Positions 1 through 21,354 of a stretch of 21,599 nucleotides of DNA are shown in pieces. The notes below the pieces were generated by a model. That model worked only from the letters and a program-made list of their open reading frames with translations, was not told the origin of the DNA and did no database searches. The stretch's first letter is position 1; each line of letters starts with the position of its first letter. Position numbers and translations under genes: made by a program. Source of the stretch: Bordetella parapertussis (GTDB lineage Bacteria > Pseudomonadota > Gammaproteobacteria > Burkholderiales > Burkholderiaceae_C). The stretch spans positions 1-21,599 of the forward strand of contig CAMBXY010000006.1 of NCBI GenBank assembly GCA_945871945.1. Reading direction: 5' to 3'.

Positions 1-3000
1 TACTTCAAATACATGATCGACTTGCTGCGCGAGCGTGGCGGCGCGCATATTCAGGTGTTTGGCGGCGGCGGCGGCGTCATCGTGGCGTCTGAAATCAATG
101 AGCTGCACGCTTACGGCGTGACCCGTATTTACAGCCCGCAAGACGGCCAACGTATGGGGCTGCAAGGCATGATTGGCGAGATGATCATGCGCTGCGACCA
201 AGACTTGAACGTCTACGCACCCAGCGCATTGAACGCCATCCAAGGCCACACACAAGCCCATTGGCGCGCCTTGGCGCAACTCATCACCGCTTTAGAAAAC
301 GGGCAAGCCCCTTCCGGTTTGGTTGATCAACTGCGCTCCCAAGCCGCTGGTTTGCAAGTGCCGGTGGTGGGCATCACCGGCACCGGTGGCGCCGGCAAAT
401 CCTCGCTCACCGACGAACTTATTCGCCGTATACGCCTCGACCAAGACGACAGCTTGCGCATCGCGGTCATCTCCATCGACCCCTCAAGGCGCAAAAGCGG
501 CGGCGCGCTCTTGGGTGACCGCATCCGCATGAACGCCATCTCGCCTTGGAATAAATTGGGGTCAGACCCCGATTTTGCGAAGCAAAACTCGGGCTCTGAC
601 CCCAAGCCGAGCGGCCAACGGGTCTTCATGCGCAGCTTGGCCACGCGTGAATTCGGCAGCGAAATCAGCGCGGCCTTGCCCGACGTGATTGCCGCGGCCA
701 AGTGCGCGGGCTTTGATGTGGTGATCGTGGAAACTTCCGGCATTGGTCAAGGCGATGCAGCCATCGTGCCGCATGTGGATGTGCCTATGTATGTCATGAC
801 GCCCGAATTTGGCGCCGCCAGCCAACTCGAAAAAATCGACATGCTCGACTTTGCCGAGTTTGTCGCCATCAACAAGTTTGACCGCAAGGGTGCCGCCGAC
901 GCGCTGCGCGATGTGGCCAAACAGGTGCAACGCAACAAAGAAGCTTGGACCACGCCCACCGATCAGATGCCGGTGTTTGGCACCATGGCAGCCCACTTCA
1001 ACGACGACGGCGTGACCGCGCTTTACCAAGCCATGAAGCTGCGTTTGCAAGCGCTGGGATTGAAGCTCAGCCAAGGCCGCCTGCCTGTGGTGAAGGTTCG
1101 CCACAGCTCGCACCAAACCCCTATCGTGCCACCTGCGCGCAGCCGCTATTTGGCAGAAATCAGCGACACCGTACGTGGCTACAAACAGCGCGCCCAGACC
1201 CAAGCGCAACTCGCCCGTGAGGTGCAACAACTGCTTGCCGCCTCAGCCATGTTGGCCGAAGGTAAACCGGGCAAGCCCCGCGCCTCTGAGGCCGCCCAAG
1301 GTTTGGCAGACGAGCGCCAAGCCCGCTTGCTGCCGGCTGCCCGCGCCTTGCTCGCCGATTGGCCGCAACTGCAAAAAGATTACGCTGCCGATGAACTGGT
1401 GGTGACCGTGCGCGACAAAGAAATCCGCACGGCGCTGGTGACCAAGTCACTCAGCGGTACAGCGGTGCGCAAAGTCGCCCTGCCCCAGTACCATGACCAT
1501 GGTGATGTGTTGCAGTGGCTGATGCTTGACAACGTGCCAGGGCGCTACCCCTACACCGCCGGCACGTTTGCCTTCAAGCGCGAAGGTGAAGACCCCACCC
1601 GCATGTTTGCGGGCGAAGGTGACGCGTTTCGCACCAACCGCCGCTTCAAACGCTTGAGTGACGGCATGCCAGCCAAACGCTTGTCTACCGCTTTCGACTC
1701 GGTCACGCTGTATGGCAACGACCCCGACTTGCGCCCCGATATTTACGGCAAGGTAGGCAACTCGGGGGCCAGCATCGCCACCTTGGACGACATGAAGGCG
1801 CTGTACGACGGCTTTGACCTTTGCTCGCCGTCTACCAGCGTGTCCATGACCATCAATGGCCCTGCGCCAACAATTTTGGCGATGTTCATGAACACCGCCA
1901 TCGACCAAAACCTAGACAAATTCAAAGCCGACAAAGGGCGTGAACCCAGCGCTGCCGAGATAGCCGATATTCGTGTTTGGGTCATGCAAAATGTGCGCGG
2001 CACGGTGCAAGCCGATATCTTGAAAGAAGACCAAGGCCAAAACACCTGTTTGTTCAGCACCGAATTTTCATTGAAGGTGATGGGCGACATTGCCCAATAT
2101 TTTGTCGAGCACCAAGTACGTAATTTCTACAGCGTATCCATCAGCGGTTACCACATCGCCGAAGCGGGTGCCAACCCCATTTCTCAATTGGCGTTCACCT
2201 TGTCCAACGGCTTCACATTTGTGGAGGCCTACTTGGCGCGTGGCATGCACATCGATGACTTCGCGCCCAACCTGAGTTTCTTTTTCAGCAACGGCATGGA
2301 CCCCGAGTACACCGTCATGGGGCGCGTGGCACGCCGCATTTGGGCTGTCACTCTGAAAGAAAAATACGGTGCCAACGAGCGCAGCCAAAAACTCAAATAC
2401 CACATCCAAACCTCTGGCCGCTCGCTGCACGCGCAGGAAATTCAGTTCAACGACATACGCACCACGTTGCAAGCGCTGATCGCGATTTACGACAACTGCA
2501 ACTCACTGCATACCAACGCGTTTGACGAAGCCATCACCACGCCCACTGAAGACAGCGTGCGCCGCGCCATGGCGATACAACTCATCATCAACCGCGAGTG
2601 GGGCTTGGCGAAAAACGAGAACCCAGGCCAAGGCGCTTTCATCATCGAAGAGCTCACCCAACTGGTGGAAGAGGCGGTGCTGTCCGAGTTTGTGGCGATC
2701 GCCGAGCGCGGTGGCGTTTTGGGAGCGATGGAAACCGGTTACCAGCGCGGCAAGATTCAAGATGAATCTATGCACTATGAAATGCTCAAACACACCGGCG
2801 AGTTACCCATCATTGGTGTGAACACCTTCAAGTCGCCGCATGCCAACGAAGTGCCAGCAAGCATAGAACTGGCCCGCTCCACCGAAGAAGAAAAGCAAAG
2901 TCAATTAAAGCGTTTGCACGCTTTTCACTTGCTGCACGCCGAACAAGCCCAGGCGCAACTGGCCCGCTTGCAGCAAGCCGTGCTGGACAACGCCAATGTG

Positions 3001-3096
3001 TTTGAGGTGCTAATGGTCGCCGTGCGCCACTGCTCTTTGGGACAAATTACCAAAGCTTTGTTTGAGGTGGGTGGGCAATACCGAAGAAATATGTAA
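1..3096 (+). CDS. icmF: Fused isobutyryl-CoA mutase IcmF (5' partial)
   Basis: Adenosylcobalamin-dependent mutase fused to its own G-protein chaperone, interconverting isobutyryl-CoA and n-butyryl-CoA. The reading frame is open from base 1, so the N-terminus with the cobalamin DxHxxG motif lies outside the window. Visible in order: the end of the B12-binding domain (glycine-rich FGGGGGVIV near base 55), a MeaB-like GTPase domain with P-loop GTGGAGKS at 379-402, ETSGIGQ near 730 and NKFD base-recognition motif at 871-882, a linker, then the mutase barrel from about 1480. Barrel segments include FAFKREGEDPTR, GNSGASIATLDDM and YHIAEAGANPISQLAF. The B12-GTPase-mutase order is specific to IcmF and differs from ordinary methylmalonyl-CoA mutase; the FAF and ISQLAF stretches fit the Phe/Gln substrate pair of isobutyryl-CoA mutases. 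Oddity: a 26-codon stretch at 541-618 replaces a loop of a few residues expected from the family and contains a palindromic repeat. The gene ends with TAA at 3094-3096. Confidence 0.93.
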   Translation, partial: YFKYMIDLLRERGGAHIQVFGGGGGVIVASEINELHAYGVTRIYSPQDGQRMGLQGMIGEMIMRCDQDLNVYAPSALNAIQGHTQAHWRALAQLITALENGQAPSGLVDQLRSQAAGLQVPVVGITGTGGAGKSSLTDELIRRIRLDQDDSLRIAVISIDPSRRKSGGALLGDRIRMNAISPWNKLGSDPDFAKQNSGSDPKPSGQRVFMRSLATREFGSEISAALPDVIAAAKCAGFDVVIVETSGIGQGDAAIVPHVDVPMYVMTPEFGAASQLEKIDMLDFAEFVAINKFDRKGAADALRDVAKQVQRNKEAWTTPTDQMPVFGTMAAHFNDDGVTALYQAMKLRLQALGLKLSQGRLPVVKVRHSSHQTPIVPPARSRYLAEISDTVRGYKQRAQTQAQLAREVQQLLAASAMLAEGKPGKPRASEAAQGLADERQARLLPAARALLADWPQLQKDYAADELVVTVRDKEIRTALVTKSLSGTAVRKVALPQYHDHGDVLQWLMLDNVPGRYPYTAGTFAFKREGEDPTRMFAGEGDAFRTNRRFKRLSDGMPAKRLSTAFDSVTLYGNDPDLRPDIYGKVGNSGASIATLDDMKALYDGFDLCSPSTSVSMTINGPAPTILAMFMNTAIDQNLDKFKADKGREPSAAEIADIRVWVMQNVRGTVQADILKEDQGQNTCLFSTEFSLKVMGDIAQYFVEHQVRNFYSVSISGYHIAEAGANPISQLAFTLSNGFTFVEAYLARGMHIDDFAPNLSFFFSNGMDPEYTVMGRVARRIWAVTLKEKYGANERSQKLKYHIQTSGRSLHAQEIQFNDIRTTLQALIAIYDNCNSLHTNAFDEAITTPTEDSVRRAMAIQLIINREWGLAKNENPGQGAFIIEELTQLVEEAVLSEFVAIAERGGVLGAMETGYQRGKIQDESMHYEMLKHTGELPIIGVNTFKSPHANEVPASIELARSTEEEKQSQLKRLHAFHLLHAEQAQAQLARLQQAVLDNANVFEVLMVAVRHCSLGQITKALFEVGGQYRRNM
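556..605. repeat. In-frame palindromic REP-like element inside icmF
   Basis: A 50-nt imperfect inverted repeat. The left arm (556-578) opens with TTGGGGTCAGACCCC, itself a near-palindrome, and the right arm (582-605) ends with GGGCTCTGACCCCAA. The two arms pair with one mismatch and one single-base bulge around a tiny loop. It is read through in frame as part of IcmF, giving a peptide with GSDP repeated twice. From memory, short GGGGTCAGA/TCTGACCCC palindromes recur in Burkholderiales genomes, so this looks like a dispersed repeat that landed in a coding region; no second copy is present in this window. Confidence 0.75.
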
Positions 3097-9224: not shown

Positions 9225-12200
9225 TTATTCCGTTGGGCTCTCTTCGCTGCTGCCTTCTTGCTGCGCCAAGGCGAGTTCTTCTGCCTCGGTTTGTGCAATT
9301 TGGCGGCGCTCGGCCTCGTCCATCAGTTCTTTTTCTTTGCGTGCACGGTGGTAGGCCATGCCTGTGCCCGCAGGAATAAGACGGCCGACGATGACGTTTT
9401 CTTTCAAGCCTCGCAACTCGTCGCGCTTGCCCATGATGGCAGCCTCGGTGAGCACGCGGGTGGTTTCTTGGAAAGAAGCCGCAGAGATAAAGGAGTCGGT
9501 TGACAAAGATGCTTTGGTGATACCCAACAACAGGTTGGTGAACGTGGCCGGGATCTTGCCATCGCGCTGCAAGGCCTCGTTGGTGTTGAGGATCTCGGAA
9601 CGCTCAACTTGCTCACCAGAGATATAGCCAGAGCCACCCACGTTGTCGACCACCACACGGCGCAGCATCTGACGCACGATAACCTCGATGTGCTTGTCGT
9701 TGATCTTCACGCCTTGTAAGCGGTAAACATCCTGCACCTCATCAACAATGTAGCGAGCCAACTCTTCGATGCCCAACAAACGCAAGATGTCTTGTGGGTC
9801 GGCGGGGCCGTCCACAATACTCTCGCCCTTGTTGACCACTTGGCCTTCATGCACCACGATGTTTTTCTCTTTGGGAATGAGTTCTTCCCACACCGTGCCT
9901 TCGGGATCGGTGATCTGCAAACGGATCTTGCCTTTGGTCTCTTTACCAAACGACACGGTGCCGGTCATCTCAGCCAAGATACCCTTGTCTTTGGGCGTAC
10001 GTGCTTCAAACAGTTCGGCCACACGCGGCAAACCACCGGTGATGTCGCGGGTCTTTTGACCTTCCACAGGAATACGTGCCAGCACCTCGCCTGGGCCCAC
10101 CTCTTGACCGTCACGCACTTGAATCAGCGCACCGACTTGGAAGCCAATCGTCACCGAGTGATCGGTGCCAGGGATCTTGACTTCTTTGCCAGAGGCGTCG
10201 AGCAACTTCACCTGCGGTCTGACCACTTTGGTGGAACCACGGCGTTTGGGGTCAATCACCACCAAGGTTGACAAACCAGTGACTTCGTCCAATTGCTTGG
10301 CAACCGTCAAACCTTCTTCGACATTTTCAAATTGGGTTTTACCAGCGAACTCGGTGATCACAGGGCGTGTGAGTGGGTCCCAGTTAGCCAGAATAGTGCC
10401 GGCTTTGATGGCTTGGTCGGGCTTGATCGCCAAAATCGCACCGTAAGGTACTTTGTGACGTTCGCGTTCGCGACCTTGTTCGTCATGAATCACGATTTCG
10501 CCTGAGCGAGAAATGACCACCAACTCTTTTTTACTGTTGGTCACATAACGCATGGTGGCGTTGAAACCGATCACGCCATTGGATTTGGCGTCCACGCTGG
10601 AGGCCACTGCCGCCCGCGAAGCAGCACCACCAATGTGGAAAGTACGCATGGTCAGCTGTGTGCCAGGTTCGCCGATGGACTGCGCGGCGATGATGCCCAC
10701 CGCCTCACCGATGTTGATCAAACCACCCCGGCCCAAATCGCGGCCGTAGCAACTGGCGCACAAGCCAAAGCGGGTCTCGCAGGTCAGCGCCGTGCGGACT
10801 TTGATTTCATCCACGCCCAAGAGCTCAATTTCATCAATCAAGTCTTCGTCGAGCATGTGACCCGCTGGTACCAGGGTTTGGCGCGTTTCGGGATGCACCA
10901 CATCTTCGGCAACCGAGCGGCCCAGCACACGATCGCGCAAAGATTCAATCACCTCACCGCCTTCAACGATGGCGCGCATGACCGAGCCGTTGTGCGTGCC
11001 GCAGTCTTGTTCGATGACAACCAAGTCCTGCACCACATCGCACAAACGACGGGTCAAGTAGCCCGAGTTGGCTGTTTTCAACGCGGTATCGGCCAGACCT
11101 TTACGCGCACCGTGGGTGGAGATGAAGTACTGCAACACATTCAGACCTTCACGGAAATTGGCCGTGATGGGGGTCTCGATGATGGAGCCGTCAGGCTTGG
11201 CCATCAAACCGCGCATACCCGCCAACTGGCGAATTTGAGCCGCAGAACCGCGCGCACCAGAGTCGGCCATCATGTAAATGGAATTGAACGACTCTTGCTC
11301 AACTTCATTGCCATGGCGGTCAATGGTTTTTTCTTTGCGCAACTGATCCATCATCACTTTGGAGACGGCGTCACCGGCTTTGCCCCAAATGTCGACCACC
11401 TTGTTGTAGCGCTCGCCAGAGGTCACCAAACCGGAGACATATTGCTGCTCGATGTCTTTGACTTCTTTTTCTGCGCTTTCAATGATGGCGTGCTTCTCAA
11501 ATGGCACCAACATATCGTCGATGCAAATCGAGATGCCTGCACGGGTGGCCAAGCGAAAGCCGTTTTGCAACAACTTGTCGGCAAACACCACGGTTTCCTT
11601 CAAGCCGCATTTGCGAAATGAGGTGTTGATGAGTTTGGAAATTTCTTTCTTCTTCAAGGCCTTGTTCAAATGGCTGAAAGGCAAACCCTTGGGCAAAATT
11701 TCCGACAACACCGCACGTCCCACGGTGGTTTCTACCAACGAGGCACTGCTGGTGAATTCGCCGGTTTCTTTGTCCTTGGCCCACTCGGTCATGCGCACCG
11801 TGACTTTGGCGGTGAGTTCCACCACATCGGCGTCGAGTGCCCGCTGCACCTCGCCAATGTCAGCAAACACCAAGCCTTCACCTTTGCCGTTGATACGTTC
11901 ACGGGTGGTGTAGTACAAGCCCAGAACCACGTCTTGTGAAGGCACGATGGACGGTTCGCCGTTGGCGGGGAAGAGCACGTTGTTGGAGGCCAGCATCAAT
12001 GTGCGGGCTTCCATTTGCGCTTCCACCGACAAAGGAATGTGCACCGCCATTTGGTCGCCGTCGAAGTCGGCATTGAAAGCAGAACACACCAGAGGGTGCA
12101 ATTGAATGGCTTTGCCTTCAATCAAGATAGGCTCAAAAGCCTGAATGCCCAAGCGGTGCAAAGTGGGCGCACGGTTGAGCAACACGGGATGCTCTTTGAT

Positions 12201-21264: not shown

Positions 21265-21280
21265 CACCAGACATCTGGTG
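21265..21280 (-). repeat. Hairpin at the 3' end of tRNA-Trp
   Basis: CACCAG (21265-21270) pairs perfectly with CTGGTG (21275-21280) around a four-base loop. On the transcript its 5' arm overlaps the encoded CCA end of the tRNA, so it could affect 3'-end maturation of the tRNA from the tRNA-secE transcript. Confidence 0.4.
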
Positions 21281-21354
21281 GCAGGGGCAGAGGGAATCGA
21301 ACCCCCAACCTTCGGTTTTGGAGACCGACGCTCTGCCAATTGAGCTATACCCCT
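21279..21354 (-). tRNA. trpT: tRNA-Trp (anticodon CCA)
   Basis: 76 bases including an encoded CCA. The acceptor stem AGGGGTA/TGCCCCT closes with one G-U pair. The D-arm (GCTC/GAGC), anticodon stem TCGGT/ACCGA with loop CTCCAAA (anticodon CCA) and T-arm with GGTTCGATTCC-type loop are all present. Its position between tuf and secE is standard in betaproteobacteria and other proteobacteria. Confidence 0.98.

Follow-up and report, generated by a model that had tools for sequence, protein, structure and literature searches.

A palindromic repeat, probably derived from a RAYT-like transposon, within a length-tolerant loop of IcmF

The 21,599-nt stretch of DNA analysed here (the window, taken at its full length) carries an in-frame palindromic insert in the chaperone part of icmF, which probably represents a mobile repeat derived from a RAYT-like transposon, probably moved in trans, that entered a loop tolerant of changes in length. 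This loop, located just after switch I, is an insertion hotspot in IcmF.

The icmF gene and its palindromic insert

The gene icmF, encoding a fused isobutyryl-CoA mutase/G-protein chaperone, occupies nt 1–3096 of the forward strand, its 5′ end lying beyond the window edge. The predicted product matched NCBIfam NF045497 (1747 bits versus a cut-off of 1500, residues 1–1031) as well as Pfam MeaB and MM_CoA_mutase, and 4xc6 aligned with it across residues 1–1031; the nearest named IcmF records were from Comamonadaceae. In contig C34 of genome G017, two equal-score IcmF matches were observed in opposite orientation (nt 41134–41655 and 253998–254519), which may reflect a duplication, inverted, within that assembly. 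Further along the window, minus-strand frames between nt 9225 and 21194 resembled, by sequence appearance, rpoC, rpoB, the genes for L7/L12, L10, L1 and L11, nusG, and secE, and a tRNA-Trp was found at nt 21279–21354 (ARAGORN).

On the forward strand of icmF, the P-loop GTGGAGKSS (residues 127–135, nt 379–405), the switch II region ETSGIGQ (nt 730–750, positioned by MeaB switch II), switch III QLEK (nt 823–834), and the base-specificity motif NKFD (nt 871–882) were all intact, the residues of switches II and III being taken from PMC10481361. The Q of QLEK corresponds to Q341 of C. metallidurans IcmF, as confirmed by the Q341A chain 8ssl, which differs at this position in the alignment. Columns of the four motifs were invariant or nearly so in an alignment of 36 rows, in agreement with the initial annotation, which had described the reading frame, P-loop, ETSGIGQ and NKFD as intact. 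Switch I was placed at D160 to R176 (nt 478–528, forward strand) by homology to MeaB 92–108, GDRIRM being aligned with GDKTRM of MeaB-like chains. With the loop excluded, dN/dS was 0.064–0.115 in comparisons with seven relatives (334–1009 codons); icmF is open and under purifying selection. On the basis of this selection IcmF carrying the insert is presumably active, in line with the tolerance of the extra residues suggested in the initial annotation.

The motif DRIRMNAI ends at nt 540 and RVFMRSLATR starts at nt 619, so that the 26 codons between MNAI and RVFMRS occupy nt 541–618 (forward strand), coordinates that had been given correctly, as verified by translation. They replace the usual 7–8 residues. 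Compared with a 7-residue loop, the insert comprises 19 codons (nt 553–609, forward strand; residues 185–203), with edges that are approximate because DNA exactly matching the empty state is absent from the relatives read. Within it lies the imperfect palindrome of 50 nt (nt 556–605, unstranded), with GGGGTCAGA at nt 558–566 and TCTGACCCC at nt 595–603. The predicted single-strand fold pairs exactly this span, as had been proposed, at -23 kcal/mol; shuffled sequences averaged -10.6 (z -5.1), and none of 200 did as well. Two copies of GGGGTCAGA, inverted and both confined to the hairpin ends, were present in the window, while shuffling gave a mean of 0.12 and none of 100 shuffles reached two. 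With one mismatch allowed, 5 matches were obtained in the window versus 3.4 expected; hence, decayed copies were not apparent in the rest of the window.

Among the 78 of 80 IcmF loci that were readable (L041 and L071 failed the search pattern), the stretch after MNAI had 7 residues in 57, and in the solved C. metallidurans IcmF 3–4 residues stand at this position. In the nearest genus, 40 of 52 loops had 7–8 residues; of the remaining 12, seven were longer without a recognised repeat and five contained the GSDP element or a remnant, namely G014 (full), G100 (three units), G022 (half), and G071 and G066 (remnants). Since most relatives have 7–8 residues, the loop in the window has about 18–19 extra codons, versus about 20 in the initial annotation, and an old conserved feature of IcmF was rejected on the same loop lengths. 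Among the best 120 of 7998 scored proteins, the full GSDP peptide was found in P0001–P0007, of which P0002–P0007 share the insert of the window (92–97% identity), and of the 32 proteins ranked directly below P0007 at least 30 had a short remnant. The same icmF insert was also found in a separate genome (G014, locus L160). Among relatives, neither conservation of the 26 codons without the palindrome nor absence of the element was seen.

The insert begins eight residues after R176, the equivalent of MeaB R108 in the alignment to MeaB-like chains. According to PMC10481361, MeaB switch I spans residues 92–108, and the active G-domain dimer is stabilised by a salt bridge between R108 of one chain and switch III of the other. 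The structure models were weak in this region, both that of the full-length protein (pLDDT 51, pTM 0.39) and that of the G-domain (pLDDT 71, pTM 0.77), the latter with IcmF chains as its best PDB matches and with the insert and most of switch I at pLDDT below or near 50.

A dispersed repeat family and its candidate transposase

Judged from sequence, the palindrome is a member of a GGGGTCAGA...TCTGACCCC family, here called family A, that is dispersed in relatives. Of 61 genomes, many of them draft assemblies, 20 contained the pattern GGGGTCAGAN{12,42}TCTGACCCC (17 of the 37 from the nearest genus and 3 of the 24 others), and none contained the reversed control pattern. By analogy with these relatives, further copies would be expected in the genome of the window itself. 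Of the 49 distinct nearest-genus sites examined with their surroundings (two overlap in G036), 13 were placed by hand in frame inside genes: six in hrpA, three in metG, three in uvrA and one in icmF. This set excludes L154 (G017), which was above threshold with upstream residues that look non-coding, and L149 (G007), with an open span of merely 52 residues after the element. Six of the host proteins were scanned with profiles, two HrpA, two MetG and one UvrA scoring above the cut-off and UvrA L144 (G005) below it; the other host genes were named by matching flanking residues. The element, initially described as a palindromic repeat, is therefore dispersed both in and outside genes of the relatives.

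Ten of the 13 in-gene copies were read in the frame GS(D/E)x...SDP, and three had the left arm in another frame, that is, one uvrA site in G005 and G011 and the second hrpA site in G012. In contig C84 of G005, uvrA carried two different copies at different sites (L144 and L099); this gene was split over two overlapping frames, both copies thus lying in a gene interrupted in that assembly, by either a sequencing error or a break in the gene itself. Copies of GGGGTCAGA were observed at more than one site in hrpA of G012 (L095) and G001 (L172), the former having a GSDP remnant in its Walker A loop and, some 480 residues downstream, another copy in frame. The alike hrpA copies of G007, G024 and G036 may share descent.

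The elements in icmF were more alike than the gene around them. That of the window differed from that of G014 at 2 of 46 nt, versus a median of 6 differences in 15-codon segments from the rest of the gene (39 of 815 overlapping segments had two or fewer), and from that of G100 at 1 nt, versus a median of 7 (11 of 775 segments as similar). Compared with copies in other genes, the icmF copies showed 1–2 differences from hrpA of G001, 3–4 from hrpA of G008, and 2–7 from metG. Such near-identity in different genes fits recent copying; constraint at the DNA level would fit too. Copies in genes mostly possessed a stop-poor TTTTGC or TTTTCC hairpin core, versus mostly a AATTAATT core, as in the transposon ends, in copies outside genes. 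Of the 15 other-core copies 11 lay in genes, compared with 2 of the 34 that have an AATT core (Fisher p 3e-6, for classes defined after the data had been viewed, with shared descent ignored and the AATT-like uvrA copy L102 counted as other); the association of core type with location is treated as a lead only.

A RAYT gene, for which the initial annotation had proposed a search, has candidates among the relatives. Y1_Tnp matches were found in 44 of 61 genomes, including 30 of 37 from the nearest genus, 26 of these 30 having one match each. For the candidate transposase of family A, flanks were analysed at 21 loci of the genus and nine from other genera. The motif GGGTCAG upstream together with CTGACCC downstream bordered the gene at 14 of the 21 genus loci; with five more at which the motif was downstream only, 19 had it downstream in all, and the two with it on neither side (G006 and G019) both had stops in the match. 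The opposite-orientation control gave 0 upstream and 2 downstream at the same 21 loci, and the motif was on both sides at one of the nine loci from other genera. Y1_Tnp was above cut-off in all three transposases scanned with Pfam; against NF047646 (REP_Tyr_transpos, cut-off 80), that of G001 scored above the threshold (83.9 bits) and those of G004 (72.1) and G059 (67.3) below. Mobilisation of the palindrome by a RAYT-like transposase would be consistent with these flanks. Neither a transposition event nor a duplicated target site or a site of cleavage was observed in the sequences.

The IcmF loop as an insertion hotspot

In an indel profile of the window and 79 loci (80 rows in all), nine rows had insertions of 15 residues or longer, each of them at window residues 184–205, where two adjacent alignment intervals were summed (L075 reaches 22 extra residues only in the sum); the largest insertion elsewhere had 12. 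Eight of the nine long rows contained repeats, which fall into five families: A in the window, B in L017, L054 and L070, C in L055 and L064, D in L027, and E in L075. The presence of at least four other repeat families in the same loop of other species had been missed in the initial annotation. The ninth row, L026 from a Rhodoferax MAG, had a 24-residue loop with many Ala, Pro and Gly residues; at the DNA level this loop was closer to the L017 insert than any of 100 shuffles, and it may be an eroded copy of family B. A shorter piece in L047 was assigned to family C by eye.

Families B to E are repeats in their own genomes, with 4, 6 and 11 sites for B and 42, 12 and 3 for C (control 0 in each case), and with 75 and 10 BLAST matches, the icmF copy included, for D and E, respectively. 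Members of B matched one another, as did those of C, better than any of 100 shuffles. Family A showed no match beyond chance to B, D or E in the shuffle test, and the closest between-family pairs joined B L054 to D, a likeness equalled by 1 of 100 shuffles, and C L064 to B L017 and A to C L055, each equalled by 4 of 100. The peptides accepted by the loop vary widely, including GSDP, VRPEPVEG and PPEGAG. Because different families use the loop, a target sequence is not favoured as the cause of the hotspot.

A 153-row tree was computed with the loop left out; 49 of its 150 inner branches have weak support, and gains are not separable from losses on it. At a minimum, family A required 10 changes and family B 3, while C, D and E required a single change each; the counts for A are not frequencies, because the P rows were chosen one per distinct loop. 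If the changes in B to E are gains and A is counted once, the loop would have received seven independent insertions.

A second loop was surveyed in HrpA, with 29 of 30 family loci readable. Two loci from two other genera (L242 and L243) had long Ala/Arg/Pro-rich loops after Walker A with no obvious palindrome. As far as these sequences go, the hrpA loop tolerates change in length, and the term multi-family hotspot is not extended to it.

Turnover, rival explanations and known systems

Several states of the element were found in icmF. The loop of G100 (L189) has three head-to-tail GSDP units over 67 residues in an otherwise open IcmF, and tandem units and partial duplications were observed in G100, P0004 and P0111. 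In G022, a 33-nt stretch from the left arm to the right flank is missing, leaving a half-element; this flank reads GACCCCGATTT in G014 and is similar to the left arm. Half-elements without the hairpin occurred in open icmF frames of G022 and G071, and in G001, the nearest of the genomes compared and a member of the clade of the window, the loop is empty, with 7 residues. Taken together, these states suggest that the element enters, multiplies in tandem and collapses. The initial annotation had regarded the repeat as domesticated, a term that implies a settled host role; the three-unit array, the 33-nt collapse, the empty sister loop and the near-identical copies across genes speak for turnover instead, and the palindrome is best read as a tolerated mobile passenger.

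By this most likely account, the palindrome would be a non-autonomous repeat resembling the two inverted ends of a RAYT-like transposon (Y1/HUH, 'TIRYT' class) joined together, and a RAYT-like transposase would probably move it in trans. A stop-poor form, read as GS(D/E)x...SDP, would have entered the loop after switch I in an ancestor of the species of the window and afterwards been duplicated in tandem, or collapsed between its own repeats into short remnants. It would persist in IcmF because the loop tolerates change in length, a tolerance suggested by the uptake of at least five repeat families across Burkholderiales while the rest of IcmF had no insertion of 15 or more residues in the 80 rows; the inserted loop would then be neutral. 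An extension of this account, in which a coding-adapted stop-poor TIRYT subfamily occupies genes, a AATTAATT-core sister lies between genes, and the IcmF loop is a landing pad that remodels the chaperone interface and affects cofactor loading, is speculative and considered unlikely.

If existing palindromes were copied by template switching or gene conversion, a transposase would be unnecessary, and the tandem units and partial duplications of G100, P0004 and P0111 could have arisen in this way; furthermore, the search for a transposase covered family A. However, the family A motif stands at both ends of the RAYT gene at 14 of 21 genus loci and the element is present in unlinked genes, so this route appears improbable, about as much so as the landing-pad extension. 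Selection for the insert itself is doubtful to a greater degree. An acidic, turn-rich loop might tune the transient G-domain dimer during adenosylcobalamin loading, insertions there being selected, and both the use of one loop by five families and the start of the insert eight residues past the equivalent of R108, the salt-bridge partner of switch III (PMC10481361), agree with such a role; yet the very different peptides accepted, the prevalence of empty and short loops (40 of 52) and the length-tolerant loop of hrpA all fit simple tolerance.

A hairpin kept for a nucleic-acid role (mRNA stability, pausing or protein binding), with the peptide as a by-product, would account for the strong predicted fold and for icmF and hrpA arms that are almost identical despite diverged host codons, but recent copying would also yield near identity, the core differs between in-gene and outside copies, and the half-elements of G022 and G071 have no hairpin; this reading is very unlikely. 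Many of the sources are metagenome assemblies, which might raise the suspicion of an assembly artefact; the insert recurs, however, in L160 of G014 and in P0002–P0007, and shuffled sequences fall short of the observed fold energy and motif count. Chance palindrome and assembly error were accordingly rejected on the shuffle tests and the independent assemblies, their probability being practically negligible.

Of the known systems, the closest kin of the repeat, as far as sequence features can tell, fits the GGGGWSAS 'TIRYT' class rather than the Rickettsia elements or GTAG REPs. TIRYT transposase genes are flanked by inverted repeats sharing GGGGWSAS (PMC3733652), and this class has been placed in TnpAREP subclass 2.1, with a C-terminal helix-turn-helix domain (PMC6006769). 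Similar to TIRYTs or TIRtrons, a RAYT-like Y1 gene lies between inverted GGGGWSAS repeats (GGGGTCAG fits) in relatives of the window, and the repeat is also a dispersed self-complementary family. The differences are that section 15 of PMC3733652 covers in-gene GTAG and CGTC repeats and not TIRs, and that no C-terminal helix-turn-helix, only Y1_Tnp, was found in the three transposases by Pfam at E 0.1, for which reason they are not assigned to subclass 2.1. With GTAG REPs and REPINs the element shares a short palindrome, a RAYT usually in single copy in the same genomes, and inverted copies around the transposase gene; by eye, no GTAG was present at the palindrome foot in nt 541–618 of the window or in the genus copies, and a classical GTAG REP was rejected on this absence. 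The likeness to Rickettsia palindromic elements noted at the outset holds for behaviour, that is, in-frame copies in unrelated protein genes with host frames open; the elements here are about 46–60 nt versus about 150 bp in the first-reported ones (PMC10969869), probably differ in host and sequence, and have a candidate transposase.

Intragenic GTAG/CGTC REPs were reported in 2013 in uvrA, RNA helicases, tRNA synthetases and recB, the recB of two Xanthomonas being struck at about the same site (PMC3733652). The kinds of host gene shared with that report are uvrA, RNA helicase and tRNA synthetase, whereas the repeat families are others, and its section 15 contains neither IcmF nor a loop used by several families. 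In the openly licensed literature, including passages of PMC5896051 and PMC8266576, neither in-gene repeats of the TIR class nor an IcmF hotspot for several families was found to be reported. Thus, in-frame palindromic repeats are already known, while TIRYT-class copies in genes and the multi-family loop appear to be new.

Rickettsia, an obligate intracellular genus, provides the best-known examples of mobile palindromes inserted in frame. The present case is from Comamonadaceae and has a candidate transposase in sight; therefore, movement, frame choice and clean-up become testable. Since solved structures of the IcmF chaperone exist, it can be measured how the insert affects GTP hydrolysis, oligomerisation and the loading of B12. 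One loop with five repeat families amounts to a natural insertion-tolerance experiment beside a G-protein chaperone switch, and hence to a natural test of how far an enzyme tolerates selfish DNA.
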